This document shows positions 21,226 to 64,000 of a stretch of DNA of 64,000 nucleotides, in pieces. The notes below the pieces were generated by a model, which saw only the letters and a list, made by a program, of their open reading frames with translations, was not told where the DNA came from and did not search any database. A program made the translations under genes and the position numbers. The DNA is taken from the NCBI GenBank assembly GCA_034509925.1, contig CM067529.1, positions 9,442,501-9,506,500 on the forward strand, given 5' to 3'. Position 1 is the first letter of the stretch. The number at the start of each line of letters is the position of its first letter. This DNA comes from Hirudinaria manillensis (lineage: Eukaryota; Annelida; Clitellata; Hirudinida; Hirudinidae).

Positions 21226-21488
21226 ACCCGGATCTAGCCAACAAAACCGACGTCTTGTGGAGGGACCTCTTAAGCCGCGATTGTCCGAAACATGGTGGAC
21301 TCGTGGGCTGCGCGTCTTGGAAAGAACTTTACGGGCAAGAAAAACGGCTCGAGAAGGAGAAGATGGAAGTAAGTAAAATTAACTTCGAGGCGAGACATAG
21401 GGAGGCGTTGGCGAACGTCCACAAATCTCGAGTGGTAAGCGTCCAGCCGTTATCCAAAAAGGCCATCTCGGCAATGAGAAAAAGGTGA
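21226..21488 (+). pseudogene. 5'-truncated Elongin A-like copy at the left edge of the array
   Basis: Homology to the unit begins abruptly at 21226 (acccggatct), matching codon 256 of the full gene, and continues in frame to the TGA at 21486-21488. The promoter and first 255 codons are absent. Two G-to-A differences from every other copy lie in the first 20 bases: ctg to cta (silent) and agc to aac (Ser to Asn). A diverged, truncated edge copy is what unequal exchange leaves at an array end. Confidence 0.9.
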
Positions 21489-21830
21489 ACCATGTTTTCG
21501 TTCTTTAAATTTTTTTTATCCCTCGTTCAATAAATTATAACGTTAAAAAAAAAAACAAACACTCTTTTCGATAAAACACAAACAAACAAACAAACAATTT
21601 TGTTCGATAAAATAGGGTAAAACAATATCGTTGTAATCTAAGCAGATATTCCAAAAATCGTTCAATAAAGTAAAAAATTTATAAAAAAAAAAAAAACAAA
21701 AAAAAAACACTCGTTTCGATAAAACATTCAAAAAAAAAATTTATTCGATAAAATAGGATTATTTATCAATTTATTTATCAATTTAAAATAAAATAGGATT
21801 ATTTATCAATACGATTATTATGCTCGGCGC

Positions 21831-21984
21831 ATCTAGCCCGCGCGCGCAGAATTGGCGCTTTGCCAGCGATACAGGTGCGTGAGGCGCGCCTCGCGAGCCT
21901 ATATAAAGGCGAAAGTCGCTCTAGTAGTCATTTCGATCGTCGCAGCCGCCCGTGAAGCATCTCCGAGAACAGCGTTATTTCCAA
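21831..21984 (+). promoter_or_regulatory. unit promoter: GC-rich block, TATA box, initiator, short 5' UTR (copy 1)
   Basis: The same block precedes all 28 copies. It contains gcccgcgcgcgc (from about 21836), a perfect 12-base palindrome gaggcgcgcctc (21881-21892), a TATA box tatataaa (21900-21907) and an initiator-like tcattt whose A is at 21930, 30 bases after the first T of the TATA box. That spacing is the standard one for RNA polymerase II. It predicts a 5' UTR of about 55 bases before the ATG at 21985. No downstream promoter element was seen at +28. The palindrome could be a dimeric factor site; that is inference. Confidence 0.75.
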
Positions 21985-23013
21985 ATGGCCTCAGCTTCAG
22001 CTACAAACGTCCTGAAAGAGTTGAACGAACGACTCGTCCTGTCGTCGTCGTCGAACGACGTTCAAGAGATTTTGAAGGTAATCAAAGAAATCTCTTCCAA
22101 GACCGTTCCTTATGCGATGTATAAGGAATCTGGTCTAGAAAAATCCATTGCCGTTCTGAGCAGTAGGAGCGGCGGAGCGAAACTCGCCGCTACCAGATTG
22201 AAAAACAAACTGGCAAAATTTCACGCATCTACTGCACTGGCCAAAAGCATCCAGTCGGCCAAGAGCAGGGTCGTCGTCGATCCAAAAGAAGCGGCCGGAT
22301 TCGCTAAAAAGCGTAAGGCGGAAGAGGAGCCGCAAATCGAGGAGCCTCCTCGAAAAGTGGCCAGGCAGGAAACGGTCGACGACACCACTAGCGTGGAAGT
22401 CCAAGAGACTTCGACGGTCCACGTGCCAAAAGAGGAATGCGGTTTAGAAGCCGATGTTGTGAAGCGCCTCGATGAGATTTGCACGGTCCTCGAGGAGAGG
22501 AGCAAGTCTCCTGCGACGTCGGAGCTCAAGTTCGGCGTTCGCGCGAGCTTCGCAAAGACGGCCTGTTTCGGAAACATGAGAAAAAACCGGACGGCCGTCC
22601 GAGGTGGGGTGCTGGACAGGTTCAGCGACCTCTTTTTCAAGAGCTTCGAAGCTGGCCGGATCGAGGGCTTGCTGCAATTGCCCTACGAGATTATCGAGCC
22701 GACTCTCGCCAAGCTCGACGCTCGACGATTGAACGCTTTCGAAAAGATGTACCCGGATCTGGCCAGCAAAACCGACGTCTTGTGGAGGGACCTCTTAAGC
22801 CGCGATTGTCCGAAACATGGTGGACTCGTGGGCTGCGCGTCTTGGAAAGAACTTTACGGGCAAGAAAAACGGCTCGAGAAGGAGAAGATGGAAGTAAGTA
22901 AAATTAACTTCGAGGCGAGACATAGGGAGGCGTTGGCGAACGTCCACAAATCTCGAGTGGTAAGCGTCCAGCCGTTATCCAAAAAGGCCATCTCGGCAAT
23001 GAGAAAAAGGTGA
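21985..23013 (+). CDS. ELOA-like: Elongin A-like protein, array copy 1
   Basis: The gene is a single exon of 342 codons. In the cell Elongin A works in the nucleus with Elongins B and C, speeds RNA polymerase II elongation, and serves as the substrate receptor of a Cullin-5 ubiquitin ligase acting on stalled polymerase. Residues 6-79 match the TFIIS N-terminal/LW domain (VLKELNERL, EILKVIKEIS, KESGLEKSIAVL). Residues 80-200 are charged and low in order, with an NLS-like KKRK at 108-111. Residues 207-330 match the Elongin-A domain: LPYEIIEPTL at 232, DVLWRDLLSRDC at 264, SWKELY at 286, then a basic tail. In the BC-box-like VLDRFSDLFF (209-218) the usual Cys is Ser214. Human ELOA has about 770 residues; the shortening is in the middle. 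I chose the ATG at 21985 because upstream in-frame extension would need a non-ATG start. A consensus donor (gtaagt) lies at codons 304-305. Confidence 0.88.
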   Translation: MASASATNVLKELNERLVLSSSSNDVQEILKVIKEISSKTVPYAMYKESGLEKSIAVLSSRSGGAKLAATRLKNKLAKFHASTALAKSIQSAKSRVVVDPKEAAGFAKKRKAEEEPQIEEPPRKVARQETVDDTTSVEVQETSTVHVPKEECGLEADVVKRLDEICTVLEERSKSPATSELKFGVRASFAKTACFGNMRKNRTAVRGGVLDRFSDLFFKSFEAGRIEGLLQLPYEIIEPTLAKLDARRLNAFEKMYPDLASKTDVLWRDLLSRDCPKHGGLVGCASWKELYGQEKRLEKEKMEVSKINFEARHREALANVHKSRVVSVQPLSKKAISAMRKR

Positions 23014-23047
23014 ACCATGTTTTCGTTCTTTAAATTTTTTTTATCCC

Positions 23048-23277
23048 TCGTTCAATAAATTATAACGTTAAAAAAAAAACAAACACTCTTTTCGATAAAA
23101 CACAAACAAACAAACAAACAATTTTGTTCGATAAAATAGGGTAAAACAATATCGTTGTAATCTAAGCAGATATTCCAAAAATCGTTCAATAAAGTAAAAA
23201 ATTTATAAAAAAAAAAAACAAAAAAAAACACTCGTTTCGATAAAACATTCAAAAAAAAATTTATTCGATAAAATAGG
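23048..23277 (+). terminator. duplicated poly(A)-signal region in the unit spacer (copy 1)
   Basis: The spacer after the stop codon carries two diverged copies of one block, offset by 134 bp. Each runs from tcgttcaataaa (23048 and 23182) through an A-rich stretch to cgataaaaca and ttcgataaaatagg. Each therefore has an AATAAA (23054-23059 and 23188-23193), the first 41 bases after the stop. TTCGATAAAA occurs at 23091, 23127, 23236 and 23264. A smaller direct repeat of aaataggattatttatcaat follows at 23271 and 23311. The structure recurs in every unit. The first AATAAA is the likeliest poly(A) signal. Confidence 0.7.
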
Positions 23278-23504
23278 ATTATTTATCAATTTATTTATCA
23301 ATTTAAAATAAAATAGGATTATTTATCAATACGATTATTATGCTCGGCGCATCTAGCCCGCGCGCGCAGAATTGGCGCTTTGCCAGCGATACAGGTGCGT
23401 GAGGCGCGCCTCGCGAGCCTATATAAAGGCGAAAGTCGCTCTAGTAGTCATTTCGATCGTCGCAGCCGCCCGTGAAGCATCTCCGAGAACAGCGTTATTT
23501 CCAA

Positions 23505-24533
23505 ATGGCCTCAGCTTCAGCTACAAACGTCCTGAAAGAGTTGAACGAACGACTCGTCCTGTCGTCGTCGTCGAACGACGTTCAAGAGATTTTGAAGGTA
23601 ATCAAAGAAATCTCTTCCAAGACCGTTCCTTATGCGATGTATAAGGAATCTGGTCTAGAAAAATCCATTGCCGTTCTGAGCAGTAGGAGCGGCGGAGCGA
23701 AACTCGCCGCTACCAGATTGAAAAACAAACTGGCAAAATTTCACGCATCTACTGCACTGGCCAAAAGCATCCAGTCGGCCAAGAGCAGGGTCGTCGTCGA
23801 TCCAAAAGAAGCGGCCGGATTCGCTAAAAAGCGTAAGGCGGAAGAGGAGCCGCAAATCGAGGAGCCTCCTCGAAAAGTGGCCAGGCAGGAAACGGTCGAC
23901 GACACCACTAGCGTGGAAGTCCAAGAGACTTCGACGGTCCACGTGCCAAAAGAGGAATGCGGTTTAGAAGCCGATGTTGTGAAGCGCCTCGATGAGATTT
24001 GCACGGTCCTCGAGGAGAGGAGCAAGTCTCCTGCGACGTCGGAGCTCAAGTTCGGCGTTCGCGCGAGCTTCGCAAAGACGGCCTGTTTCGGAAACATGAG
24101 AAAAAACCGGACGGCCGTCCGAGGTGGGGTGCTGGACAGGTTCAGCGACCTCTTTTTCAAGAGCTTCGAAGCTGGCCGGATCGAGGGCTTGCTGCAATTG
24201 CCCTACGAGATTATCGAGCCGACTCTCGCCAAGCTCGACGCTCGACGATTGAACGCTTTCGAAAAGATGTACCCGGATCTGGCCAGCAAAACCGACGTCT
24301 TGTGGAGGGACCTCTTAAGCCGCGATTGTCCGAAACATGGTGGACTCGTGGGCTGCGCGTCTTGGAAAGAACTTTACGGGCAAGAAAAACGGCTCGAGAA
24401 GGAGAAGATGGAAGTAAGTAAAATTAACTTCGAGGCGAGACATAGGGAGGCGTTGGCGAACGTCCACAAATCTCGAGTGGTAAGCGTCCAGCCGTTATCC
24501 AAAAAGGCCATCTCGGCAATGAGAAAAAGGTGA
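23505..24533 (+). CDS. ELOA-like: Elongin A-like protein, array copy 2
   Basis: Protein identical to copy 1 over all 342 residues. Next copy starts 1518 bp later. Confidence 0.87.
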   Translation: MASASATNVLKELNERLVLSSSSNDVQEILKVIKEISSKTVPYAMYKESGLEKSIAVLSSRSGGAKLAATRLKNKLAKFHASTALAKSIQSAKSRVVVDPKEAAGFAKKRKAEEEPQIEEPPRKVARQETVDDTTSVEVQETSTVHVPKEECGLEADVVKRLDEICTVLEERSKSPATSELKFGVRASFAKTACFGNMRKNRTAVRGGVLDRFSDLFFKSFEAGRIEGLLQLPYEIIEPTLAKLDARRLNAFEKMYPDLASKTDVLWRDLLSRDCPKHGGLVGCASWKELYGQEKRLEKEKMEVSKINFEARHREALANVHKSRVVSVQPLSKKAISAMRKR

Positions 24534-25022
24534 ACCATGTTTTCGTTCTTTAAATTTTTTTTATCCCTCGTTCAATAAATTATAACGTTAAAAAAAAAAC
24601 AAACACTCTTTTCGATAAAACACAAACAAACAAACAAACAATTTTGTTCGATAAAATAGGGTAAAACAATATCGTTGTAATCTAAGCAGATATTCCAAAA
24701 ATCGTTCAATAAAGTAAAAAATTTATAAAAAAAAACAAAAAAAAAACACTCGTTTCGATAAAACATTCAAAAAAAAATTTATTCGATAAAATAGGATTAT
24801 TTATCAATTTATTTATCAATTTAAAATAAAATAGGATTATTTATCAATACGATTATTATGCTCGGCGCATCTAGCCCGCGCGCGCAGAATTGGCGCTTTG
24901 CCAGCGATACAGGTGCGTGAGGCGCGCCTCGCGAGCCTATATAAAGGCGAAAGTCGCTCTAGTAGTCATTTCGATCGTCGCAGCCGCCCGTGAAGCATCT
25001 CCGAGAACAGCGTTATTTCCAA

Positions 25023-26051
25023 ATGGCCTCAGCTTCAGCTACAAACGTCCTGAAAGAGTTGAACGAACGACTCGTCCTGTCGTCGTCGTCGAACGACGTT
25101 CAAGAGATTTTGAAGGTAATCAAAGAAATCTCTTCCAAGACCGTTCCTTATGCGATGTATAAGGAATCTGGTCTAGAAAAATCCATTGCCGTTCTGAGCA
25201 GTAGGAGCGGCGGAGCGAAACTCGCCGCTACCAGATTGAAAAACAAACTGGCAAAATTTCACGCATCTACTGCACTGGCCAAAAGCATCCAGTCGGCCAA
25301 GAGCAGGGTCGTCGTCGATCCAAAAGAAGCGGCCGGATTCGCTAAAAAGCGTAAGGCGGAAGAGGAGCCGCAAATCGAGGAGCCTCCTCGAAAAGTGGCC
25401 AGGCAGGAAACGGTCGACGACACCACTAGCGTGGAAGTCCAAGAGACTTCGACGGTCCACGTGCCAAAAGAGGAATGCGGTTTAGAAGCCGATGTTGTGA
25501 AGCGCCTCGATGAGATTTGCACGGTCCTCGAGGAGAGGAGCAAGTCTCCTGCGACGTCGGAGCTCAAGTTCGGCGTTCGCGCGAGCTTCGCAAAGACGGC
25601 CTGTTTCGGAAACATGAGAAAAAACCGGACGGCCGTCCGAGGTGGGGTGCTGGACAGGTTCAGCGACCTCTTTTTCAAGAGCTTCGAAGCTGGCCGGATC
25701 GAGGGCTTGCTGCAATTGCCCTACGAGATTATCGAGCCGACTCTCGCCAAGCTCGACGCTCGACGATTGAACGCTTTCGAAAAGATGTACCCGGATCTGG
25801 CCAGCAAAACCGACGTCTTGTGGAGGGACCTCTTAAGCCGCGATTGTCCGAAACATGGTGGACTCGTGGGCTGCGCGTCTTGGAAAGAACTTTACGGGCA
25901 AGAAAAACGGCTCGAGAAGGAGAAGATGGAAGTAAGTAAAATTAACTTCGAGGCGAGACATAGGGAGGCGTTGGCGAACGTCCACAAATCTCGAGTGGTA
26001 AGCGTCCAGCCGTTATCCAAAAAGGCCATCTCGGCAATGAGAAAAAGGTGA
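25023..26051 (+). CDS. ELOA-like: Elongin A-like protein, array copy 3
   Basis: Protein identical to copy 1. Period to the next copy 1517 bp, among the shorter values because of short A-runs in the spacer. Confidence 0.87.
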   Translation: MASASATNVLKELNERLVLSSSSNDVQEILKVIKEISSKTVPYAMYKESGLEKSIAVLSSRSGGAKLAATRLKNKLAKFHASTALAKSIQSAKSRVVVDPKEAAGFAKKRKAEEEPQIEEPPRKVARQETVDDTTSVEVQETSTVHVPKEECGLEADVVKRLDEICTVLEERSKSPATSELKFGVRASFAKTACFGNMRKNRTAVRGGVLDRFSDLFFKSFEAGRIEGLLQLPYEIIEPTLAKLDARRLNAFEKMYPDLASKTDVLWRDLLSRDCPKHGGLVGCASWKELYGQEKRLEKEKMEVSKINFEARHREALANVHKSRVVSVQPLSKKAISAMRKR

Positions 26052-26539
26052 ACCATGTTTTCGTTCTTTAAATTTTTTTTATCCCTCGTTCAATAAATTA
26101 TAACGTTAAAAAAAAAACAAACACTCTTTTCGATAAAACACAAACAAACAAACAAACAATTTTGTTCGATAAAATAGGGTAAAACAATATCGTTGTAATC
26201 TAAGCAGATATTCCAAAAATCGTTCAATAAAGTAAAAAATTTATAAAAAAAAACAAAAAAAAACACTCGTTTCGATAAAACATTCAAAAAAAAATTTATT
26301 CGATAAAATAGGATTATTTATCAATTTATTTATCAATTTAAAATAAAATAGGATTATTTATCAATACGATTATTATGCTCGGCGCATCTAGCCCGCGCGC
26401 GCAGAATTGGCGCTTTGCCAGCGATACAGGTGCGTGAGGCGCGCCTCGCGAGCCTATATAAAGGCGAAAGTCGCTCTAGTAGTCATTTCGATCGTCGCAG
26501 CCGCCCGTGAAGCATCTCCGAGAACAGCGTTATTTCCAA

Positions 26540-27568
26540 ATGGCCTCAGCTTCAGCTACAAACGTCCTGAAAGAGTTGAACGAACGACTCGTCCTGTCGT
26601 CGTCGTCGAACGACGTTCAAGAGATTTTGAAGGTAATCAAAGAAATCTCTTCCAAGACCGTTCCTTATGCGATGTATAAGGAATCTGGTCTAGAAAAATC
26701 CATTGCCGTTCTGAGCAGTAGGAGCGGCGGAGCGAAACTCGCCGCTACCAGATTGAAAAACAAACTGGCAAAATTTCACGCATCTACTGCACTGGCCAAA
26801 AGCATCCAGTCGGCCAAGAGCAGGGTCGTCGTCGATCCAAAAGAAGCGGCCGGATTCGCTAAAAAGCGTAAGGCGGAAGAGGAGCCGCAAATCGAGGAGC
26901 CTCCTCGAAAAGTGGCCAGGCAGGAAACGGTCGACGACACCACTAGCGTGGAAGTCCAAGAGACTTCGACGGTCCACGTGCCAAAAGAGGAATGCGGTTT
27001 AGAAGCCGATGTTGTGAAGCGCCTCGATGAGATTTGCACGGTCCTCGAGGAGAGGAGCAAGTCTCCTGCGACGTCGGAGCTCAAGTTCGGCGTTCGCGCG
27101 AGCTTCGCAAAGACGGCCTGTTTCGGAAACATGAGAAAAAACCGGACGGCCGTCCGAGGTGGGGTGCTGGACAGGTTCAGCGACCTCTTTTTCAAGAGCT
27201 TCGAAGCTGGCCGGATCGAGGGCTTGCTGCAATTGCCCTACGAGATTATCGAGCCGACTCTCGCCAAGCTCGACGCTCGACGATTGAACGCTTTCGAAAA
27301 GATGTACCCGGATCTGGCCAGCAAAACCGACGTCTTGTGGAGGGACCTCTTAAGCCGCGATTGTCCGAAACATGGTGGACTCGTGGGCTGCGCGTCTTGG
27401 AAAGAACTTTACGGGCAAGAAAAACGGCTCGAGAAGGAGAAGATGGAAGTAAGTAAAATTAACTTCGAGGCGAGACATAGGGAGGCGTTGGCGAACGTCC
27501 ACAAATCTCGAGTGGTAAGCGTCCAGCCGTTATCCAAAAAGGCCATCTCGGCAATGAGAAAAAGGTGA
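26540..27568 (+). CDS. ELOA-like: Elongin A-like protein, array copy 4
   Basis: Protein identical to copy 1. Period to the next copy 1520 bp. Confidence 0.87.
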   Translation: MASASATNVLKELNERLVLSSSSNDVQEILKVIKEISSKTVPYAMYKESGLEKSIAVLSSRSGGAKLAATRLKNKLAKFHASTALAKSIQSAKSRVVVDPKEAAGFAKKRKAEEEPQIEEPPRKVARQETVDDTTSVEVQETSTVHVPKEECGLEADVVKRLDEICTVLEERSKSPATSELKFGVRASFAKTACFGNMRKNRTAVRGGVLDRFSDLFFKSFEAGRIEGLLQLPYEIIEPTLAKLDARRLNAFEKMYPDLASKTDVLWRDLLSRDCPKHGGLVGCASWKELYGQEKRLEKEKMEVSKINFEARHREALANVHKSRVVSVQPLSKKAISAMRKR

Positions 27569-28059
27569 ACCATGTTTTCGTTCTTTAAATTTTTTTTATC
27601 CCTCGTTCAATAAATTATAACGTTAAAAAAAAAACAAACACTCTTTTCGATAAAACACAAACAAACAAACAAACAATTTTGTTCGATAAAATAGGGTAAA
27701 ACAATATCGTTGTAATCTAAGCAGATATTCCAAAAATCGTTCAATAAAGTAAAAAATTTATAAAAAAAAAAACAAAAAAAAACACTCGTTTCGATAAAAC
27801 ATTCAAAAAAAAAATTTATTCGATAAAATAGGATTATTTATCAATTTATTTATCAATTTAAAATAAAATAGGATTATTTATCAATACGATTATTATGCTC
27901 GGCGCATCTAGCCCGCGCGCGCAGAATTGGCGCTTTGCCAGCGATACAGGTGCGTGAGGCGCGCCTCGCGAGCCTATATAAAGGCGAAAGTCGCTCTAGT
28001 AGTCATTTCGATCGTCGCAGCCGCCCGTGAAGCATCTCCGAGAACAGCGTTATTTCCAA

Positions 28060-29088
28060 ATGGCCTCAGCTTCAGCTACAAACGTCCTGAAAGAGTTGAA
28101 CGAACGACTCGTCCTGTCGTCGTCGTCGAACGACGTTCAAGAGATTTTGAAGGTAATCAAAGAAATCTCTTCCAAGACCGTTCCTTATGCGATGTATAAG
28201 GAATCTGGTCTAGAAAAATCCATTGCCGTTCTGAGCAGTAGGAGCGGCGGAGCGAAACTCGCCGCTACCAGATTGAAAAACAAACTGGCAAAATTTCACG
28301 CATCTACTGCACTGGCCAAAAGCATCCAGTCGGCCAAGAGCAGGGTCGTCGTCGATCCAAAAGAAGCGGCCGGATTCGCTAAAAAGCGTAAGGCGGAAGA
28401 GGAGCCGCAAATCGAGGAGCCTCCTCGAAAAGTGGCCAGGCAGGAAACGGTCGACGACACCACTAGCGTGGAAGTCCAAGAGACTTCGACGGTCCACGTG
28501 CCAAAAGAGGAATGCGGTTTAGAAGCCGATGTTGTGAAGCGCCTCGATGAGATTTGCACGGTCCTCGAGGAGAGGAGCAAGTCTCCTGCGACGTCGGAGC
28601 TCAAGTTCGGCGTTCGCGCGAGCTTCGCAAAGACGGCCTGTTTCGGAAACATGAGAAAAAACCGGACGGCCGTCCGAGGTGGGGTGCTGGACAGGTTCAG
28701 CGACCTCTTTTTCAAGAGCTTCGAAGCTGGCCGGATCGAGGGCTTGCTGCAATTGCCCTACGAGATTATCGAGCCGACTCTCGCCAAGCTCGACGCTCGA
28801 CGATTGAACGCTTTCGAAAAGATGTACCCGGATCTGGCCAGCAAAACCGACGTCTTGTGGAGGGACCTCTTAAGCCGCGATTGTCCGAAACATGGTGGAC
28901 TCGTGGGCTGCGCGTCTTGGAAAGAACTTTACGGGCAAGAAAAACGGCTCGAGAAGGAGAAGATGGAAGTAAGTAAAATTAACTTCGAGGCGAGACATAG
29001 GGAGGCGTTGGCGAACGTCCACAAATCTCGAGTGGTAAGCGTCCAGCCGTTATCCAAAAAGGCCATCTCGGCAATGAGAAAAAGGTGA
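28060..29088 (+). CDS. ELOA-like: Elongin A-like protein, array copy 5
   Basis: Protein identical to copy 1. Period to the next copy 1517 bp. Confidence 0.87.
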   Translation: MASASATNVLKELNERLVLSSSSNDVQEILKVIKEISSKTVPYAMYKESGLEKSIAVLSSRSGGAKLAATRLKNKLAKFHASTALAKSIQSAKSRVVVDPKEAAGFAKKRKAEEEPQIEEPPRKVARQETVDDTTSVEVQETSTVHVPKEECGLEADVVKRLDEICTVLEERSKSPATSELKFGVRASFAKTACFGNMRKNRTAVRGGVLDRFSDLFFKSFEAGRIEGLLQLPYEIIEPTLAKLDARRLNAFEKMYPDLASKTDVLWRDLLSRDCPKHGGLVGCASWKELYGQEKRLEKEKMEVSKINFEARHREALANVHKSRVVSVQPLSKKAISAMRKR

Positions 29089-29576
29089 ACCATGTTTTCG
29101 TTCTTTAAATTTTTTTTATCCCTCGTTCAATAAATTATAACGTTAAAAAAAAAACAAACACTCTTTTCGATAAAACACAAACAAACAAACAAACAATTTT
29201 GTTCGATAAAATAGGGTAAAACAATATCGTTGTAATCTAAGCAGATATTCCAAAAATCGTTCAATAAAGTAAAAAATTTATAAAAAAAAAACAAAAAAAA
29301 CACTCGTTTCGATAAAACATTCAAAAAAAAATTTATTCGATAAAATAGGATTATTTATCAATTTATTTATCAATTTAAAATAAAATAGGATTATTTATCA
29401 ATACGATTATTATGCTCGGCGCATCTAGCCCGCGCGCGCAGAATTGGCGCTTTGCCAGCGATACAGGTGCGTGAGGCGCGCCTCGCGAGCCTATATAAAG
29501 GCGAAAGTCGCTCTAGTAGTCATTTCGATCGTCGCAGCCGCCCGTGAAGCATCTCCGAGAACAGCGTTATTTCCAA

Positions 29577-30605
29577 ATGGCCTCAGCTTCAGCTACAAAC
29601 GTCCTGAAAGAGTTGAACGAACGACTCGTCCTGTCGTCGTCGTCGAACGACGTTCAAGAGATTTTGAAGGTAATCAAAGAAATCTCTTCCAAGACCGTTC
29701 CTTATGCGATGTATAAGGAATCTGGTCTAGAAAAATCCATTGCCGTTCTGAGCAGTAGGAGCGGCGGAGCGAAACTCGCCGCTACCAGATTGAAAAACAA
29801 ACTGGCAAAATTTCACGCATCTACTGCACTGGCCAAAAGCATCCAGTCGGCCAAGAGCAGGGTCGTCGTCGATCCAAAAGAAGCGGCCGGATTCGCTAAA
29901 AAGCGTAAGGCGGAAGAGGAGCCGCAAATCGAGGAGCCTCCTCGAAAAGTGGCCAGGCAGGAAACGGTCGACGACACCACTAGCGTGGAAGTCCAAGAGA
30001 CTTCGACGGTCCACGTGCCAAAAGAGGAATGCGGTTTAGAAGCCGATGTTGTGAAGCGCCTCGATGAGATTTGCACGGTCCTCGAGGAGAGGAGCAAGTC
30101 TCCTGCGACGTCGGAGCTCAAGTTCGGCGTTCGCGCGAGCTTCGCAAAGACGGCCTGTTTCGGAAACATGAGAAAAAACCGGACGGCCGTCCGAGGTGGG
30201 GTGCTGGACAGGTTCAGCGACCTCTTTTTCAAGAGCTTCGAAGCTGGCCGGATCGAGGGCTTGCTGCAATTGCCCTACGAGATTATCGAGCCGACTCTCG
30301 CCAAGCTCGACGCTCGACGATTGAACGCTTTCGAAAAGATGTACCCGGATCTGGCCAGCAAAACCGACGTCTTGTGGAGGGACCTCTTAAGCCGCGATTG
30401 TCCGAAACATGGTGGACTCGTGGGCTGCGCGTCTTGGAAAGAACTTTACGGGCAAGAAAAACGGCTCGAGAAGGAGAAGATGGAAGTAAGTAAAATTAAC
30501 TTCGAGGCGAGACATAGGGAGGCGTTGGCGAACGTCCACAAATCTCGAGTGGTAAGCGTCCAGCCGTTATCCAAAAAGGCCATCTCGGCAATGAGAAAAA
30601 GGTGA
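29577..30605 (+). CDS. ELOA-like: Elongin A-like protein, array copy 6
   Basis: Protein identical to copy 1. Period to the next copy 1519 bp. Confidence 0.87.
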   Translation: MASASATNVLKELNERLVLSSSSNDVQEILKVIKEISSKTVPYAMYKESGLEKSIAVLSSRSGGAKLAATRLKNKLAKFHASTALAKSIQSAKSRVVVDPKEAAGFAKKRKAEEEPQIEEPPRKVARQETVDDTTSVEVQETSTVHVPKEECGLEADVVKRLDEICTVLEERSKSPATSELKFGVRASFAKTACFGNMRKNRTAVRGGVLDRFSDLFFKSFEAGRIEGLLQLPYEIIEPTLAKLDARRLNAFEKMYPDLASKTDVLWRDLLSRDCPKHGGLVGCASWKELYGQEKRLEKEKMEVSKINFEARHREALANVHKSRVVSVQPLSKKAISAMRKR

Positions 30606-31095
30606 ACCATGTTTTCGTTCTTTAAATTTTTTTTATCCCTCGTTCAATAAATTATAACGTTAAAAAAAAAAACAAACACTCTTTTCGATAAAACACAAAC
30701 AAACAAACAAACAATTTTGTTCGATAAAATAGGGTAAAACAATATCGTTGTAATCTAAGCAGATATTCCAAAAATCGTTCAATAAAGTAAAAAATTTATA
30801 AAAAAAAACAAAAAAAAACACTCGTTTCGATAAAACATTCAAAAAAAAAATTTATTCGATAAAATAGGATTATTTATCAATTTATTTATCAATTTAAAAT
30901 AAAATAGGATTATTTATCAATACGATTATTATGCTCGGCGCATCTAGCCCGCGCGCGCAGAATTGGCGCTTTGCCAGCGATACAGGTGCGTGAGGCGCGC
31001 CTCGCGAGCCTATATAAAGGCGAAAGTCGCTCTAGTAGTCATTTCGATCGTCGCAGCCGCCCGTGAAGCATCTCCGAGAACAGCGTTATTTCCAA

Positions 31096-53397: not shown

Positions 53398-53885
53398 ACC
53401 ATGTTTTCGTTCTTTAAATTTTTTTATCCCTCGTTCAATAAATTATAACGTTAAAAAAAAAACAAACACTCTTTTCGATAAAACACAAACAAACAAACAA
53501 ACAATTTTGTTCGATAAAATAGGGTAAAACAATATCGTTGTAATCTAAGCAGATATTCCAAAAATCGTTCAATAAAGTAAAAAATTTATAAAAAAAAAAC
53601 AAAAAAAAACACTCGTTTCGATAAAACATTCAAAAAAAAATTTATTCGATAAAATAGGATTATTTATCAATTTATTTATCAATTTAAAATAAAATAGGAT
53701 TATTTATCAATACGATTATTATGCTCGGCGCATCTAGCCCGCGCGCGCAGAATTGGCGCTTTGCCAGCGATACAGGTGCGTGAGGCGCGCCTCGCGAGCC
53801 TATATAAAGGCGAAAGTCGCTCTAGTAGTCATTTCGATCGTCGCAGCCGCCCGTGAAGCATCTCCGAGAACAGCGTTATTTCCAA

Positions 53886-54914: not shown

Positions 54915-55404
54915 ACCATGTTTTCGTTCTTTAAATTTTTTTTATCCCTCGTTCAATAAATTATAACGTTAAAAAAAAAACAAACACTCTTTTCGATAAA
55001 ACACAAACAAACAAACAAACAATTTTGTTCGATAAAATAGGGTAAAACAATATCGTTGTAATCTAAGCAGATATTCCAAAAATCGTTCAATAAAGTAAAA
55101 AATTTATAAAAAAAAAACAAAAAAAAACACTCGTTTCGATAAAACATTCAAAAAAAAAATTTATTCGATAAAATAGGATTATTTATCAATTTATTTATCA
55201 ATTTAAAATAAAATAGGATTATTTATCAATACGATTATTATGCTCGGCGCATCTAGCCCGCGCGCGCAGAATTGGCGCTTTGCCAGCGATACAGGTGCGT
55301 GAGGCGCGCCTCGCGAGCCTATATAAAGGCGAAAGTCGCTCTAGTAGTCATTTCGATCGTCGCAGCCGCCCGTGAAGCATCTCCGAGAACAGCGTTATTT
55401 CCAA

Positions 55405-56433
55405 ATGGCCTCAGCTTCAGCTACAAACGTCCTGAAAGAGTTGAACGAACGACTCGTCCTGTCGTCGTCGTCGAACGACGTTCAAGAGATTTTGAAGGTA
55501 ATCAAAGAAATCTCTTCCAAGACCGTTCCTTATGCGATGTATAAGGAATCTGGTCTAGAAAAATCCATTGCCGTTCTGAGCAGTAGGAGCGGCGGAGCGA
55601 AACTCGCCGCTACCAGATTGAAAAACAAACTGGCAAAATTTCACGCATCTACTGCACTGGCCAAAAGCATCCAGTCGGCCAAGAGCAGGGTCGTCGTCGA
55701 TCCAAAAGAAGCGGCCGGATTCGCTAAAAAGCGTAAGGCGGAAGAGGAGCCGCAAATCGAGGAGCCTCCTCGAAAAGTGGCCAGGCAGGAAACGGTCGAC
55801 GACACCACTAGCGTGGAAGTCCAAGAGACTTCGACGGTCCACGTGCCAAAAGAGGAATGCGGTTTAGAAGCCGATGTTGTGAAGCGCCTCGATGAGATTT
55901 GCACGGTCCTCGAGGAGAGGAGCAAGTCTCCTGCGACGTCGGAGCTCAAGTTCGGCGTTCGCGCGAGCTTCGCAAAGACGGCCTGTTTCGGAAACATGAG
56001 AAAAAACCGGACGGCCGTCCGAGGTGGGGTGCTGGACAGGTTCAGCGACCTCTTTTTCAAGAGCTTCGAAGCTGGCCGGATCGAGGGCTTGCTGCAATTG
56101 CCCTACGAGATTATCGAGCCGACTCTCGCCAAGCTCGACGCTCGACGATTGAACGCTTTCGAAAAGATGTACCCGGATCTGGCCAGCAAAACCGACGTCT
56201 TGTGGAGGGACCTCTTAAGCCGCGATTGTCCGAAACATGGTGGACTCGTGGGCTGCGCGTCTTGGAAAGAACTTTACGGGCAAGAAAAACGGCTCGAGAA
56301 GGAGAAGATGGAAGTAAGTAAAATTAACTTCGAGGCGAGACATAGGGAGGCGTTGGCGAACGTCCACAAATCTCGAGTGGTAAGCGTCCAGCCGTTATCC
56401 AAAAAGGCCATCTCGGCAATGAGAAAAAGGTGA
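55405..56433 (+). CDS. ELOA-like: Elongin A-like protein, array copy 23
   Basis: Protein identical to copy 1. The following spacer has an extra A in the caaacactc motif near 56500. Period 1518 bp. Confidence 0.87.
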   Translation: MASASATNVLKELNERLVLSSSSNDVQEILKVIKEISSKTVPYAMYKESGLEKSIAVLSSRSGGAKLAATRLKNKLAKFHASTALAKSIQSAKSRVVVDPKEAAGFAKKRKAEEEPQIEEPPRKVARQETVDDTTSVEVQETSTVHVPKEECGLEADVVKRLDEICTVLEERSKSPATSELKFGVRASFAKTACFGNMRKNRTAVRGGVLDRFSDLFFKSFEAGRIEGLLQLPYEIIEPTLAKLDARRLNAFEKMYPDLASKTDVLWRDLLSRDCPKHGGLVGCASWKELYGQEKRLEKEKMEVSKINFEARHREALANVHKSRVVSVQPLSKKAISAMRKR

Positions 56434-56922
56434 ACCATGTTTTCGTTCTTTAAATTTTTTTTATCCCTCGTTCAATAAATTATAACGTTAAAAAAAAAAC
56501 AAAACACTCTTTTCGATAAAACACAAACAAACAAACAAACAATTTTGTTCGATAAAATAGGGTAAAACAATATCGTTGTAATCTAAGCAGATATTCCAAA
56601 AATCGTTCAATAAAGTAAAAAATTTATAAAAAAAAACAAAAAAAAACACTCGTTTCGATAAAACATTCAAAAAAAAATTTATTCGATAAAATAGGATTAT
56701 TTATCAATTTATTTATCAATTTAAAATAAAATAGGATTATTTATCAATACGATTATTATGCTCGGCGCATCTAGCCCGCGCGCGCAGAATTGGCGCTTTG
56801 CCAGCGATACAGGTGCGTGAGGCGCGCCTCGCGAGCCTATATAAAGGCGAAAGTCGCTCTAGTAGTCATTTCGATCGTCGCAGCCGCCCGTGAAGCATCT
56901 CCGAGAACAGCGTTATTTCCAA

Positions 56923-57951
56923 ATGGCCTCAGCTTCAGCTACAAACGTCCTGAAAGAGTTGAACGAACGACTCGTCCTGTCGTCGTCGTCGAACGACGTT
57001 CAAGAGATTTTGAAGGTAATCAAAGAAATCTCTTCCAAGACCGTTCCTTATGCGATGTATAAGGAATCTGGTCTAGAAAAATCCATTGCCGTTCTGAGCA
57101 GTAGGAGCGGCGGAGCGAAACTCGCCGCTACCAGATTGAAAAACAAACTGGCAAAATTTCACGCATCTACTGCACTGGCCAAAAGCATCCAGTCGGCCAA
57201 GAGCAGGGTCGTCGTCGATCCAAAAGAAGCGGCCGGATTCGCTAAAAAGCGTAAGGCGGAAGAGGAGCCGCAAATCGAGGAGCCTCCTCGAAAAGTGGCC
57301 AGGCAGGAAACGGTCGACGACACCACTAGCGTGGAAGTCCAAGAGACTTCGACGGTCCACGTGCCAAAAGAGGAATGCGGTTTAGAAGCCGATGTTGTGA
57401 AGCGCCTCGATGAGATTTGCACGGTCCTCGAGGAGAGGAGCAAGTCTCCTGCGACGTCGGAGCTCAAGTTCGGCGTTCGCGCGAGCTTCGCAAAGACGGC
57501 CTGTTTCGGAAACATGAGAAAAAACCGGACGGCCGTCCGAGGTGGGGTGCTGGACAGGTTCAGCGACCTCTTTTTCAAGAGCTTCGAAGCTGGCCGGATC
57601 GAGGGCTTGCTGCAATTGCCCTACGAGATTATCGAGCCGACTCTCGCCAAGCTCGACGCTCGACGATTGAACGCTTTCGAAAAGATGTACCCGGATCTGG
57701 CCAGCAAAACCGACGTCTTGTGGAGGGACCTCTTAAGCCGCGATTGTCCGAAACATGGTGGACTCGTGGGCTGCGCGTCTTGGAAAGAACTTTACGGGCA
57801 AGAAAAACGGCTCGAGAAGGAGAAGATGGAAGTAAGTAAAATTAACTTCGAGGCGAGACATAGGGAGGCGTTGGCGAACGTCCACAAATCTCGAGTGGTA
57901 AGCGTCCAGCCGTTATCCAAAAAGGCCATCTCGGCAATGAGAAAAAGGTGA
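56923..57951 (+). CDS. ELOA-like: Elongin A-like protein, array copy 24
   Basis: Protein identical to copy 1. Period to the next copy 1521 bp. Confidence 0.87.
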   Translation: MASASATNVLKELNERLVLSSSSNDVQEILKVIKEISSKTVPYAMYKESGLEKSIAVLSSRSGGAKLAATRLKNKLAKFHASTALAKSIQSAKSRVVVDPKEAAGFAKKRKAEEEPQIEEPPRKVARQETVDDTTSVEVQETSTVHVPKEECGLEADVVKRLDEICTVLEERSKSPATSELKFGVRASFAKTACFGNMRKNRTAVRGGVLDRFSDLFFKSFEAGRIEGLLQLPYEIIEPTLAKLDARRLNAFEKMYPDLASKTDVLWRDLLSRDCPKHGGLVGCASWKELYGQEKRLEKEKMEVSKINFEARHREALANVHKSRVVSVQPLSKKAISAMRKR

Positions 57952-58443
57952 ACCATGTTTTCGTTCTTTAAATTTTTTTTATCCCTCGTTCAATAAATTA
58001 TAACGTTAAAAAAAAAACAAACACTCTTTTCGATAAAACACAAACAAACAAACAAACAATTTTGTTCGATAAAATAGGGTAAAACAATATCGTTGTAATC
58101 TAAGCAGATATTCCAAAAATCGTTCAATAAAGTAAAAAATTTATAAAAAAAAAAAACAAAAAAAAACACTCGTTTCGATAAAACATTCAAAAAAAAAATT
58201 TATTCGATAAAATAGGATTATTTATCAATTTATTTATCAATTTAAAATAAAATAGGATTATTTATCAATACGATTATTATGCTCGGCGCATCTAGCCCGC
58301 GCGCGCAGAATTGGCGCTTTGCCAGCGATACAGGTGCGTGAGGCGCGCCTCGCGAGCCTATATAAAGGCGAAAGTCGCTCTAGTAGTCATTTCGATCGTC
58401 GCAGCCGCCCGTGAAGCATCTCCGAGAACAGCGTTATTTCCAA

Positions 58444-59473
58444 ATGGCCTCAGCTTCAGCTACAAACGTCCTGAAAGAGTTGAACGAACGACTCGTCCTG
58501 TCGTCGTCGTCGAACGACGTTCAAGAGATTTTGAAGGTAATCAAAGAAATCTCTTCCAAGACCGTTCCTTATGCGATGTATAAGGAATCTGGTCTAGAAA
58601 AATCCATTGCCGTTCTGAGCAGTAGGAGCGGCGGAGCGAAACTCGCCGCTACCAGATTGAAAAACAAACTGGCAAAATTTCACGCATCTACTGCACTGGC
58701 CAAAAGCATCCAGTCGGCCAAGAGCAGGGTCGTCGTCGATCCAAAAGAAGCGGCCGGATTCGCTAAAAAGCGTAAGGCGGAAGAGGAGCCGCAAATCGAG
58801 GAGCCTCCTCGAAAAGTGGCCAGGCAGGAAACGGTCGACGACACCACTAGCGTGGAAGTCCAAGAGACTTCGACGGTCCACGTGCCAAAAGAGGAATGCG
58901 GTTTAGAAGCCGATGTTGTGAAGCGCCTCGATGAGATTTGCACGGTCCTCGAGGAGAGGAGCAAGTCTCCTGCGACGTCGGAGCTCAAGTTCGGCGTTCG
59001 CGCGAGCTTCGCAAAGACGGCCTGTTTCGGAAACATGAGAAAAAAACCGGACGGCCGTCCGAGGTGGGGTGCTGGACAGGTTCAGCGACCTCTTTTTCAA
59101 GAGCTTCGAAGCTGGCCGGATCGAGGGCTTGCTGCAATTGCCCTACGAGATTATCGAGCCGACTCTCGCCAAGCTCGACGCTCGACGATTGAACGCTTTC
59201 GAAAAGATGTACCCGGATCTGGCCAGCAAAACCGACGTCTTGTGGAGGGACCTCTTAAGCCGCGATTGTCCGAAACATGGTGGACTCGTGGGCTGCGCGT
59301 CTTGGAAAGAACTTTACGGGCAAGAAAAACGGCTCGAGAAGGAGAAGATGGAAGTAAGTAAAATTAACTTCGAGGCGAGACATAGGGAGGCGTTGGCGAA
59401 CGTCCACAAATCTCGAGTGGTAAGCGTCCAGCCGTTATCCAAAAAGGCCATCTCGGCAATGAGAAAAAGGTGA
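58444..59473 (+). pseudogene. ELOA-like: Elongin A-like array copy 25, +1 frameshift
   Basis: Identical to the other copies except for one extra A in a run after the codons for GNMR (seven A at 59040-59046, six elsewhere). The frame changes after about residue 199. Translation runs on in the wrong frame to a stop ending at 59361, giving about 305 residues without the Elongin-A domain. The original frame reopens downstream and reaches the normal TGA at 59473. The promoter is intact. The change sits in a homopolymer, so a base-calling error is a real alternative to a true mutation. Confidence 0.85.
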
Positions 59474-59965
59474 ACCATGTTTTCGTTCTTTAAATTTTTT
59501 TTATCCCTCGTTCAATAAATTATAACGTTAAAAAAAAAAACAAACACTCTTTTCGATAAAACACAAACAAACAAACAAACAATTTTGTTCGATAAAATAG
59601 GGTAAAACAATATCGTTGTAATCTAAGCAGATATTCCAAAAATCGTTCAATAAAGTAAAAAATTTATAAAAAAAATAAAAAAAAAAAACACTCGTTTCGA
59701 TAAAACATTCAAAAAAAAAAATTATTCGATAAAATAGGATTATTTATCAAATTATTTATCAATTTAAAATAAAATAGGATTATTAATCAATACGATTATT
59801 ATGCTCGGCGCATCTAGCCCGCGCGCGCAGAATTGGCGCTTTGCCAGCGATACAGGTGCGTGAGGCGCGCCTCGCGAGCCTATATAAAGGCGAAAGTCGC
59901 TCTAGTAGTCATTTCGATCGTCGCAGCCGCCCGTGAAGCATCTCCGAGAACAGCGTTATTTCCAA

Positions 59966-60994
59966 ATGGCCTCAGCTTCAGCTACAAACGTCCTGAAAGA
60001 GTTGAACGAACGACTCGTCCTGTCGTCGTCGTCGAACGACGTTCAAGAGATTTTGAAGGTAATCAAAGAAATCTCTTCCAAGACCGTTCCTTATGCGATG
60101 TATAAGGAATCTGGTCTAGAAAAATCCATTGCCGTTCTGAGCAGTAGGAGCGGCGGAGCGAAACTCGCCGCTACCAGATTGAAAAACAAACTGGCAAAAT
60201 TTCACGCATCTACTGCACTGGCCAAAAGCATCCAGTCGGCCAAGAGCAGGGTCGTCGTCGATCCAAAAGAAGCGGCCGGATTCGCTAAAAAGCGTAAGGC
60301 GGAAGAGGAGCCGCAAATCGAGGAGCCTCCTCGAAAAGTGGCCAGGCAGGAAACGGTCGACGACACCACTAGCGTGGAAGTCCAAGAGACTTCGACGGTC
60401 CACGTGCCAAAAGAGGAATGCGGTTTAGAAGCCGATGTTGTGAAGCGCCTCGATGAGATTTGCACGGTCCTCGAGGAGAGGAGCAAGTCTCCTGCGACGT
60501 CGGAGCTCAAGTTCGGCGTTCGCGCGAGCTTCGCAAAGACGGCCTGTTTCGGAAACATGAGAAAAAACCGGACGGCCGTCCGAGGTGGGGTGCTGGACAG
60601 GTTCAGCGACCTCTTTTTCAAGAGCTTCGAAGCTGGCCGGATCGAGGGCTTGCTGCAATTGCCCTACGAGATTATCGAGCCGACTCTCGCCAAGCTCGAC
60701 GCTCGACGATTGAACGCTTTCGAAAAGATGTACCCGGATCTGGCCAGCAAAACCGACGTCTTGTGGAGGGACCTCTTAAGCCGCGATTGTCCGAAACATG
60801 GTGGACTCGTGGGCTGCGCGTCTTGGAAAGAACTTTACGGGCAAGAAAAACGGCTCGAGAAGGAGAAGATGGAAGTAAGTAAAATTAACTTCGAGGCGAG
60901 ACATAGGGAGGCGTTGGCGAACGTCCACAAATCTCGAGTGGTAAGCGTCCAGCCGTTATCCAAAAAGGCCATCTCGGCAATGAGAAAAAGGTGA
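59966..60994 (+). CDS. ELOA-like: Elongin A-like protein, array copy 26
   Basis: Protein identical to copy 1. The upstream spacer carries the T-interrupted A-tract plus two extra T-to-A changes (tatcaaattattta and attattaatcaat near 59747-59787). Its own downstream spacer has a 12-bp deletion in the ttatttatcaat repeat, giving the shortest period, 1507 bp. Confidence 0.87.
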   Translation: MASASATNVLKELNERLVLSSSSNDVQEILKVIKEISSKTVPYAMYKESGLEKSIAVLSSRSGGAKLAATRLKNKLAKFHASTALAKSIQSAKSRVVVDPKEAAGFAKKRKAEEEPQIEEPPRKVARQETVDDTTSVEVQETSTVHVPKEECGLEADVVKRLDEICTVLEERSKSPATSELKFGVRASFAKTACFGNMRKNRTAVRGGVLDRFSDLFFKSFEAGRIEGLLQLPYEIIEPTLAKLDARRLNAFEKMYPDLASKTDVLWRDLLSRDCPKHGGLVGCASWKELYGQEKRLEKEKMEVSKINFEARHREALANVHKSRVVSVQPLSKKAISAMRKR

Positions 60995-61472
60995 ACCATG
61001 TTTTCGTTCTTTAAATTTTTTTTATCCCTCGTTCAATAAATTATAACGTTAAAAAAAAAACAAACACTCTTTTCGATAAAACACAAACAAACAAACAAAC
61101 AATTTTGTTCGATAAAATAGGGTAAAACAATATCGTTGTAATCTAAGCAGATATTCCAAAAATCGTTCAATAAAGTAAAAAATTTATAAAAAAAATAAAA
61201 AAAAAAAACACTCGTTTCGATAAAACATTCAAAAAAAAAATTATTCGATAAAATAGGATTATTTATCAATTTAAAATAAAATAGGATTATTTATCAATAC
61301 GATTATTATGCTCGGCGCATCTAGCCCGCGCGCGCAGAATTGGCGCTTTGCCAGCGATACAGGTGCGTGAGGCGCGCCTCGCGAGCCTATATAAAGGCGA
61401 AAGTCGCTCTAGTAGTCATTTCGATCGTCGCAGCCGCCCGTGAAGCATCTCCGAGAACAGCGTTATTTCCAA

Positions 61473-62501
61473 ATGGCCTCAGCTTCAGCTACAAACGTCC
61501 TGAAAGAGTTGAACGAACGACTCGTCCTGTCGTCGTCGTCGAACGACGTTCAAGAGATTTTGAAGGTAATCAAAGAAATCTCTTCCAAGACCGTTCCTTA
61601 TGCGATGTATAAGGAATCTGGTCTAGAAAAATCCATTGCCGTTCTGAGCAGTAGGAGCGGCGGAGCGAAACTCGCCGCTACCAGATTGAAAAACAAACTG
61701 GCAAAATTTCACGCATCTACTGCACTGGCCAAAAGCATCCAGTCGGCCAAGAGCAGGGTCGTCGTCGATCCAAAAGAAGCGGCCGGATTCGCTAAAAAGC
61801 GTAAGGCGGAAGAGGAGCCGCAAATCGAGGAGCCTCCTCGAAAAGTGGCCAGGCAGGAAACGGTCGACGACACCACTAGCGTGGAAGTCCAAGAGACTTC
61901 GACGGTCCACGTGCCAAAAGAGGAATGCGGTTTAGAAGCCGATGTTGTGAAGCGCCTCGATGAGATTTGCACGGTCCTCGAGGAGAGGAGCAAGTCTCCT
62001 GCGACGTCGGAGCTCAAGTTCGGCGTTCGCGCGAGCTTCGCAAAGACGGCCTGTTTCGGAAACATGAGAAAAAACCGGACGGCCGTCCGAGGTGGGGTGC
62101 TGGACAGGTTCAGCGACCTCTTTTTCAAGAGCTTCGAAGCTGGCCGGATCGAGGGCTTGCTGCAATTGCCCTACGAGATTATCGAGCCGACTCTCGCCAA
62201 GCTCGACGCTCGACGATTGAACGCTTTCGAAAAGATGTACCCGGATCTGGCCAGCAAAACCGACGTCTTGTGGAGGGACCTCTTAAGCCGCGATTGTCCG
62301 AAACATGGTGGACTCGTGGGCTGCGCGTCTTGGAAAGAACTTTACGGGCAAGAAAAACGGCTCGAGAAGGAGAAGATGGAAGTAAGTAAAATTAACTTCG
62401 AGGCGAGACATAGGGAGGCGTTGGCGAACGTCCACAAATCTCGAGTGGTAAGCGTCCAGCCGTTATCCAAAAAGGCCATCTCGGCAATGAGAAAAAGGTG
62501 A
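61473..62501 (+). CDS. ELOA-like: Elongin A-like protein, array copy 27
   Basis: Protein identical to copy 1. The following spacer has the T-interrupted A-tract and a 2-bp deletion in the tatcaat repeat near 62777. Period 1517 bp. Confidence 0.87.
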   Translation: MASASATNVLKELNERLVLSSSSNDVQEILKVIKEISSKTVPYAMYKESGLEKSIAVLSSRSGGAKLAATRLKNKLAKFHASTALAKSIQSAKSRVVVDPKEAAGFAKKRKAEEEPQIEEPPRKVARQETVDDTTSVEVQETSTVHVPKEECGLEADVVKRLDEICTVLEERSKSPATSELKFGVRASFAKTACFGNMRKNRTAVRGGVLDRFSDLFFKSFEAGRIEGLLQLPYEIIEPTLAKLDARRLNAFEKMYPDLASKTDVLWRDLLSRDCPKHGGLVGCASWKELYGQEKRLEKEKMEVSKINFEARHREALANVHKSRVVSVQPLSKKAISAMRKR

Positions 62502-62989
62502 ACCATGTTTTCGTTCTTTAAATTTTTTTTATCCCTCGTTCAATAAATTATAACGTTAAAAAAAAAACAAACACTCTTTTCGATAAAACACAAACAAACA
62601 AACAAACAATTTTGTTCGATAAAATAGGGTAAAACAATATCGTTGTAATCTAAGCAGATATTCCAAAAATCGTTCAATAAAGTAAAAAATTTATAAAAAA
62701 AATAAAAAAAAAAAACACTCGTTTCGATAAAACATTCAAAAAAAAAATTATTCGATAAAATAGGATTATTTATCAATATTTATCAATTTAAAATAAAATA
62801 GGATTATTTATCAATACGATTATTATGCTCGGCGCATCTAGCCCGCGCGCGCAGAATTGGCGCTTTGCCAGCGATACAGGTGCGTGAGGCGCGCCTCGCG
62901 AGCCTATATAAAGGCGAAAGTCGCTCTAGTAGTCATTTCGATCGTCGCAGCCGCCCGTGAAGCATCTCCGAGAACAGCGTTATTTCCAA

Positions 62990-64000
62990 ATGGCCTCAGC
63001 TTCAGCTACAAACGTCCTGAAAGAGTTGAACGAACGACTCGTCCTGTCGTCGTCGTCGAACGACGTTCAAGAGATTTTGAAGGTAATCAAAGAAATCTCT
63101 TCCAAGACCGTTCCTTATGCGATGTATAAGGAATCTGGTCTAGAAAAATCCATTGCCGTTCTGAGCAGTAGGAGCGGCGGAGCGAAACTCGCCGCTACCA
63201 GATTGAAAAACAAACTGGCAAAATTTCACGCATCTACTGCACTGGCCAAAAGCATCCAGTCGGCCAAGAGCAGGGTCGTCGTCGATCCAAAAGAAGCGGC
63301 CGGATTCGCTAAAAAGCGTAAGGCGGAAGAGGAGCCGCAAATCGAGGAGCCTCCTCGAAAAGTGGCCAGGCAGGAAACGGTCGACGACACCACTAGCGTG
63401 GAAGTCCAAGAGACTTCGACGGTCCACGTGCCAAAAGAGGAATGCGGTTTAGAAGCCGATGTTGTGAAGCGCCTCGATGAGATTTGCACGGTCCTCGAGG
63501 AGAGGAGCAAGTCTCCTGCGACGTCGGAGCTCAAGTTCGGCGTTCGCGCGAGCTTCGCAAAGACGGCCTGTTTCGGAAACATGAGAAAAAACCGGACGGC
63601 CGTCCGAGGTGGGGTGCTGGACAGGTTCAGCGACCTCTTTTTCAAGAGCTTCGAAGCTGGCCGGATCGAGGGCTTGCTGCAATTGCCCTACGAGATTATC
63701 GAGCCGACTCTCGCCAAGCTCGACGCTCGACGATTGAACGCTTTCGAAAAGATGTACCCGGATCTGGCCAGCAAAACCGACGTCTTGTGGAGGGACCTCT
63801 TAAGCCGCGATTGTCCGAAACATGGTGGACTCGTGGGCTGCGCGTCTTGGAAAGAACTTTACGGGCAAGAAAAACGGCTCGAGAAGGAGAAGATGGAAGT
63901 AAGTAAAATTAACTTCGAGGCGAGACATAGGGAGGCGTTGGCGAACGTCCACAAATCTCGAGTGGTAAGCGTCCAGCCGTTATCCAAAAAGGCCATCTCG
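62990..64000 (+). CDS. ELOA-like: Elongin A-like protein, array copy 28 (cut by window end)
   Basis: Complete promoter and first 337 codons, identical to copy 1. The last few codons and stop lie beyond the window, so the array extends further right. Confidence 0.85.
   Translation, partial: MASASATNVLKELNERLVLSSSSNDVQEILKVIKEISSKTVPYAMYKESGLEKSIAVLSSRSGGAKLAATRLKNKLAKFHASTALAKSIQSAKSRVVVDPKEAAGFAKKRKAEEEPQIEEPPRKVARQETVDDTTSVEVQETSTVHVPKEECGLEADVVKRLDEICTVLEERSKSPATSELKFGVRASFAKTACFGNMRKNRTAVRGGVLDRFSDLFFKSFEAGRIEGLLQLPYEIIEPTLAKLDARRLNAFEKMYPDLASKTDVLWRDLLSRDCPKHGGLVGCASWKELYGQEKRLEKEKMEVSKINFEARHREALANVHKSRVVSVQPLSKKAIS

Follow-up and report, generated by a model that had tools for sequence, protein, structure and literature searches.

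In the open-licence literature searched, a single array of genes for Elongin A (ELOA) has been described, in primates, and no annelid or leech Elongin A. The primate cluster, ELOA3 (TCEB3C), is located on human chromosome 18. With the leech arrays reported here it shares several features, in the sections of its description drawn on: the ELOA paralogue lacks introns and is repeated head to tail, its copies are uniform within the species and truncated ones lie at the edges, purifying selection on it is modest (the leech counts give signs of such selection), and a multi-exon ELOA is present elsewhere in the genome (PMC10664989). The variable copies of ELOA3 are its edge copies (PMC10664989, section 6). 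The leech locus lies in a stretch of 64,000 nucleotides from Hirudinaria manillensis (contig CM067529.1, here C4, positions 9,442,501 to 9,506,500), analysed whole and called the window below, and consists of 28 head-to-tail units of the same gene preceded by a truncated 5' copy (array 1). The explanation we favour, and consider fairly probable, is that a self-contained, retrogene-like gene encoding a compact ELOA paralogue is repeated in tandem here, in an array that is shaped by concerted evolution, provides an RNA polymerase II (Pol II) elongation factor in bulk and is convergent with primate ELOA3. An earlier interpretation by a model that saw only the letters of the window (the sequence-only reading) had proposed an invertebrate amplification separate from the primate one; the location of the array in an annelid genome agrees with this, and that interpretation is supported overall. 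In that genome's mitochondrial contig of 15,581 bp, the part that can be read has cox1, cox2, cox3, trnQ, nad6 and cob in this order (protein genes recognised by eye), as in the ground pattern of annelids.

Array 1, its units and its ends

Twenty-eight starts of one frame occur in the window at spacings of 1507-1525 bp, far above chance, the autocorrelation of the region peaks at 1517-1519 bp, and the units measure 1.51-1.53 kb; the array is confirmed as real. Each unit has a single open frame, intron-free and of 342 codons. A TATA box (TATATAAA) stands 85 bp upstream of the ATG in all 28, and AATAAA lies about 40 bp 3' of the stop in 27 of the 27 units where it is visible, with an A-run after it and a spacer that is A-rich throughout. 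The 28 same-strand, promoter-bearing units of about 1.52 kb that the sequence-only reading had counted are therefore all there, as is the array at the position it gave, apart from the truncated copy, which starts at 21223 and not at 21226. The main features are as follows (window coordinates; CDS, coding sequence).

21223..64000, and about 296 bp beyond the window, + strand: array 1 (Elongin A-like megasatellite), by repeat and frame analysis
21223..21488, + strand: truncated first copy, the 3' part of the CDS only, then a full spacer
21900..21907, + strand: TATA box of unit 1, TATATAAA, 85 bp before the ATG
21985..23013, + strand: CDS of unit 1, 342 codons and stop, no intron
23054..23059, + strand: poly(A) signal of unit 1 (AATAAA), about 40 bp past the stop, A-run next
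23505..24533, + strand: CDS of unit 2, used as reference in the protein analyses
58444..59473, + strand: unit 25, the sole broken full copy, with an extra A near coding nucleotide 600 and the frame lost after about residue 200
62990..64000, + strand: unit 28, cut by the window end; downstream sequence shows it complete and identical to the others

The claim of a uniform coding sequence was equally well founded, with 26 of the 27 whole CDSs inside the window identical across 1029 nt, or 27 of 28 once the last is completed from the downstream sequence; the odd one, unit 25 (58444), has one A too many in an A-run and is frameshifted. The spacers are less constant. As full units, 24 of 27 are distinct, mostly by A-run length, and 11 of 501 spacer columns hold more than one base, although several of these lie in A-runs where the alignment is arbitrary, against no substitution in the coding part. 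One spacer variant is common to units 18 and 25-27, and units 26 and 27 carry further deletions.

The number of copies is an assembly estimate, and the limits of the assembly are where an artefact would enter, with one or a few true copies multiplied by the assembler. According to the portion of the genome paper used here, the mean HiFi read is 18.73 kb (PMC10671345), which cannot span the 43-kb array, and the A-runs by which the units chiefly differ are also where sequencing errors fall. Such inflation is nonetheless very improbable, since 24 of the 27 full units are distinct, if largely by their A-runs, units 18 and 25-27 have a spacer variant in common and units 26 and 27 extra deletions, and a second array on another contig, described below, has real base differences between its copies. 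Both ends of array 1, moreover, pass into other sequence on a 13.6-Mb contig. At the 3' side the repeat stops about 296 bp past the window end (position 796 of stretch L039) and non-array sequence follows, so that the array is finished, contrary to the sequence-only reading, which had taken it to be incomplete.

The encoded protein and its relatives in the genome

The Pfam domain Elongin_A (PF06881) is found in the array 1 protein at residues 231-315 with 41.8 bits, over the curated cut-off of 29.8, and both of its matches in the PDB, though modest (E 0.003 and 0.009), are Elongin A entries; those matched by the array proteins are 4hfx and 8oev. Together with an alignment to human Elongin A, these results bear out the identity assigned by the sequence-only reading; of the two domains it named for a Pfam search of the 342-residue protein, Elongin_A exceeded its cut-off and the TFIIS N-terminal domain gave no match. 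Four parts of the protein, mapped on unit 2, are used in what follows.

23505..23789, + strand: residues 1-95, probable TFIIS N-terminal-like helical bundle (TND), on weak evidence
24048..24092, + strand: residues 182-196, aligned via array 2 to the Elongin latch, with Arg186 at the place of human R555 (numbering offset inferred)
24126..24155, + strand: residues 208-217, aligned to the BC box, with Phe213 in place of Cys
24195..24449, + strand: residues 231-315, Pfam Elongin_A domain

The genome was searched with the array 1 protein and PF06881; the best candidates were scored, and further weak members may exist. A second array (array 2) lies on the minus strand of contig C13, at 4.53-4.54 Mb, with a period of 1306 bp and ten intact frames of 230 codons, which comprise seven distinct coding sequences and score 52.2 bits for Elongin_A (cut-off 29.8). 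Its two-unit stretches are 98.9-100% alike (seven matches of the full 2.6-kb length), and at C13:4540865-4541819 two partial copies break the regular period. The suggestion that this gene family is prone to array formation is strengthened by this second case; dosage, a germline role and genetic conflict, which the sequence-only reading named as purposes, are conjectural.

The sequence-only reading had also called for a look at whether a separate, intron-containing ELOA gene is present in the same genome, and there are two, ELOA-a and ELOA-b, multi-exon and not arrayed, about 52 kb apart on contig C9. Eight exons of ELOA-b were read by splice borders, all GT-AG, and seven of ELOA-a, with one border set by eye and the last donor unsure; the 3' end of each was not traced. 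Elongin_A scores 54.3 bits in ELOA-b and 52.5 bits in ELOA-a, ELOA-b matches the Elongin-A of 8oev with E 2.2e-24, and the TFIIS-N (Med26) domain reaches 38.7 bits in ELOA-b and 11.6 bits, below the cut-off, in ELOA-a. The two genes (L045 4453-6565 and L046 4578-6299, both on the minus strand) are 34% identical to each other and agree in five intron phases (2, 1, 1, 0, 0), ELOA-b having one extra early intron; a CTP-synthase-like gene, recognised by eye, adjoins ELOA-a. With intron-bearing ELOA genes in the same genome, the intron-free arrays appear retrogene-like. The array 1 and array 2 proteins are 41% identical over 225 residues, whereas the longer blastp alignments of either with the C9 proteins give 24-33% (and a 43-residue piece shared by array 1 and ELOA-a 37%). 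This greater closeness of the arrays to each other, judged from pairwise identities, suggests one shared intron-free ancestor.

Three relics lie outside the arrays, at C4:9955 kb, C4:9272 kb and C6:3890.8-3891.1 kb. The first runs from the tail of one unit across a spacer and through most of the CDS that follows, at 96% identity over about 1.48 kb, with deletions of 7 and 8 bp, and since it spans two units it must have left an array. Its divergence implies that array 1 predates it and either has kept its uniformity from then on or regained it later. By eye, this relic (L040 5221-6679) seems to differ little from array 1 over the 5' coding part and more often over the 3' part and the spacer, an unevenness that could reflect partial gene conversion from array 1.

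A TFIIS N-terminal domain probably makes up the first 95 residues of the array 1 protein, although no single one of the matches that follow is significant by itself. This part can be aligned to the beginning of the Elongin-A in 8oev, and has matches to 6zuz (E 0.56) and to leech ELOA-b (blastp, E about 0.01). A predicted model of the N-terminal part by itself has a pLDDT (predicted local distance difference test) of 73.5, and Foldseek ranked the human Elongin-A TND second to it (prob 0.99, E 0.21); a further structure comparison placed the yeast LW (TFIIS-type) domain first, with helical folds tying widely.

For the middle and C-terminal parts the guide is the structure of human Elongin on Pol II, in which the sections consulted name a latch (553-564, with R555 and K559), a BC box, the Elongin_A domain and a C-terminal linker, latch and linker both being required for stimulation (PMC10716050). 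The HMMER alignment of array 2 has Arg in the R555 column, and array 1, when aligned to array 2, has it too; the K559 column is non-basic in the arrays, with K or R one residue later, read by eye. The numbering used for this takes the chain as the paper's numbering plus 3, from the R-to-K spacing. The canonical BC box consensus carries Cys. A BC box with this Cys is absent from the array proteins, the column being Phe in array 2 (HMMER) and in array 1 (via array 2); since ELOA-b (HMMER) and ELOA-a share the Phe, the change is probably older than the arrays.

Selection, function and surroundings

Between array 1 and array 2, over 219 codons, a purpose-written count of the Nei-Gojobori type gave replacement (dN) and silent (dS) divergences of 0.53 and 1.44, a dN/dS of about 0.37. 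Within array 2 the coding variants are four silent and two replacement, where neutrality would give a replacement fraction of 0.80 (P 0.018), and substituted columns number 11 in eight spacers of 610-620 bp (of nine intervals) against six in ten coding copies of 693 bp. All these counts, like the array 1 columns given above, point the same way, and give signs that the coding sequence is under purifying selection.

They also bear on whether the copies are needed at all. In a neutral or selfish megasatellite the number of units would drift by unequal exchange and the gene would be a passenger without need for many copies, and near-identical units, a truncated edge copy, the partial copies of array 2 and the relics are what unequal exchange would leave without selection on number. 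Such exchange would indeed be expected to leave a truncated edge copy, as at the 5' end of array 1, and partial internal copies, as in array 2. Yet the full frames are intact in 37 of 38 cases across the arrays (27/28 and 10/10), dN/dS between the arrays is low, coding variation is below spacer variation, and a single genome with sister genes in two arrays would be hard to reach by drift alone, all of which makes a passenger gene unlikely.

Conflict systems often contain multi-copy homogenised arrays. This lends some colour to the notion that the arrays encode an antagonist, a shortened elongin that would vie with the true Elongin A for Pol II and might serve as a germline drive or as a suppressor; the array 2 protein without its N-terminal domain would suit such a role, as would the strong divergence of the array proteins from the multi-exon ELOA proteins. 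The selection looks purifying and not diversifying, however, and the two ELOA genes on C9 are not arrayed, so that we think an antagonist distinctly improbable.

The favoured explanation, a compact ELOA retrogene-like paralogue made in bulk, would run as follows. One processed ELOA copy would have founded the lineage, which split into two loci, each becoming or remaining an array, and unequal crossing-over and gene conversion would keep each array uniform. The predicted contact with Pol II would be retained through the Elongin_A domain, which makes it in human Elongin, and the latch Arg, and the coupling to Elongin BC-Cul5 would be weak or lost; with these parts kept and the canonical BC-box Cys missing, the array protein probably acts in Pol II elongation with little or no coupling of that kind. 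The array would allow the protein to be made briefly and in large amount, most plausibly in the germline or early embryo, and short, intron-free, TATA-driven genes in many copies would suit rapid expression of this sort. In one array 1 unit the observed/expected CpG ratio is 1.31 in the coding part and 2.51 in the spacer, against 0.82 in the left flank, and this lack of depletion is in keeping with an unmethylated locus, possibly active in the germline, without demonstrating one.

Several points weigh against this explanation. The TFIIS-N domain of the array 1 protein found no Pfam match and depends on weak matches (E 0.56; Foldseek E 0.21), and the array 2 protein is without this N-terminal part. 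The BC-box Phe occurs in both multi-exon ELOA genes as well, which means that a loss of BC binding would not be specific to the arrays, and a BC box bearing Phe might still bind Elongin BC. The evidence for retroposition consists of the absence of introns and, in array 1, an A-run after AATAAA within an A-rich spacer; dS between the arrays is near saturation and the selection counts are small; and, as the part of the genome paper used here states, the assembly was polished with short reads (NextPolish, PMC10671345), which can smooth repeats, so that the uniformity could in part be an effect of polishing.

A wider proposal is put forward tentatively, as something we doubt more than we believe: on at least two occasions in animals, once in primates and again in leeches, where two loci are involved, the Elongin A family would have been drawn into homogenised tandem retrogene arrays, and these would yield a burst of Pol II elongation factor uncoupled from the ubiquitin-ligase arm of Elongin BC, probably in the germline or early embryo. 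ELOA3 purified from human cells had ELOB and ELOC near background, as section 8 of its description reports (PMC10664989), and on that analogy array formation may be accompanied by a loss of BC coupling. Against freedom from BC stand earlier in vitro work, in which, as far as the passages drawn on relate, Elongin A3 does bind Elongin BC (PMC7948402; retold in PMC10664989), and the leech BC-box Phe, which is not confined to the arrays.

The surroundings of array 1 were also surveyed within the window. Upstream of it are exons of ELP1 (IKAP, an Elongator subunit) at 14092-15362 (+), with profile scores of 55.3 bits for the alpha-solenoid and 28.3 bits for the TPR part, and between ELP1 and the array there is a hAT transposase dimerisation domain (32.8 bits, 18788-19033, +). 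An exon of an Ulp1/SENP-type protease (Peptidase_C48, 35.3 bits) lies at 2669-2995 (-), and a GC-rich short tandem repeat with a 16-bp unit, TTAGCCGGGGCCGGGG, occupies 18135-18194 within AT-rich flank.

Elongin A arrays compared

From metazoan ELOA as defined by PF06881 the leech arrays have kept an Elongin_A domain over the Pfam cut-off, an aligned latch Arg and, in array 1, probably the TFIIS N-terminal domain. They differ in length (342 or 230 residues, where the PDB chain 8oev_M has 801), in the loss of most of the middle region, in the Phe for the BC-box Cys, and in being intron-free and multicopy. The D4Z4/DUX4, Obox and LEUTX loci are likewise multi-copy arrays of short nuclear-protein genes, tied to early genome activation, and DUX4 is a retrogene; their products are DNA-binding factors, unlike those of the leech Elongin A arrays.

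The nearest likeness is to ELOA3, and in the leech too there are intron-free copies beside an intron-bearing gene of the parent type, in homogenised head-to-tail units. The unit size (1.5 and 1.3 kb in the leech) and the animal phylum are different, and the leech has two sister-gene arrays encoding short proteins of 342 and 230 residues. Where human ELOA3 units, in the account drawn on (PMC10664989), contain HSMAR2, Alu and Charlie elements, those of array 1 contain a TATA box. The same account has ELOA3 in primates only (PMC10664989), and the leech arrays are for that reason taken to have a separate origin and not to be orthologues; also against orthology are the annelid genome and the finding that, among the four leech proteins compared, the two arrays are each other's best match (41%). 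New here are the second array, the two multi-exon ELOA genes, the three relics, the signs of purifying selection, and the BC-box Phe in arrays and multi-exon genes alike. As the genome paper states in the part used here, de novo repeats were masked ahead of gene prediction (PMC10671345), and the array units may thereby have been hidden from annotation.

The leech arrays look like a second, separate case of an ELOA array, doubled within one genome, and convergent arrays in primates and an annelid would turn ELOA3 from a lone oddity into a testable pattern, raising the question of why dozens of identical copies of this Pol II factor should be kept. A single leech genome of 148 Mb has both sister arrays, a pair of multi-exon ELOA genes and the relics, and so allows direct comparison of dosage, homogenisation and functional change.

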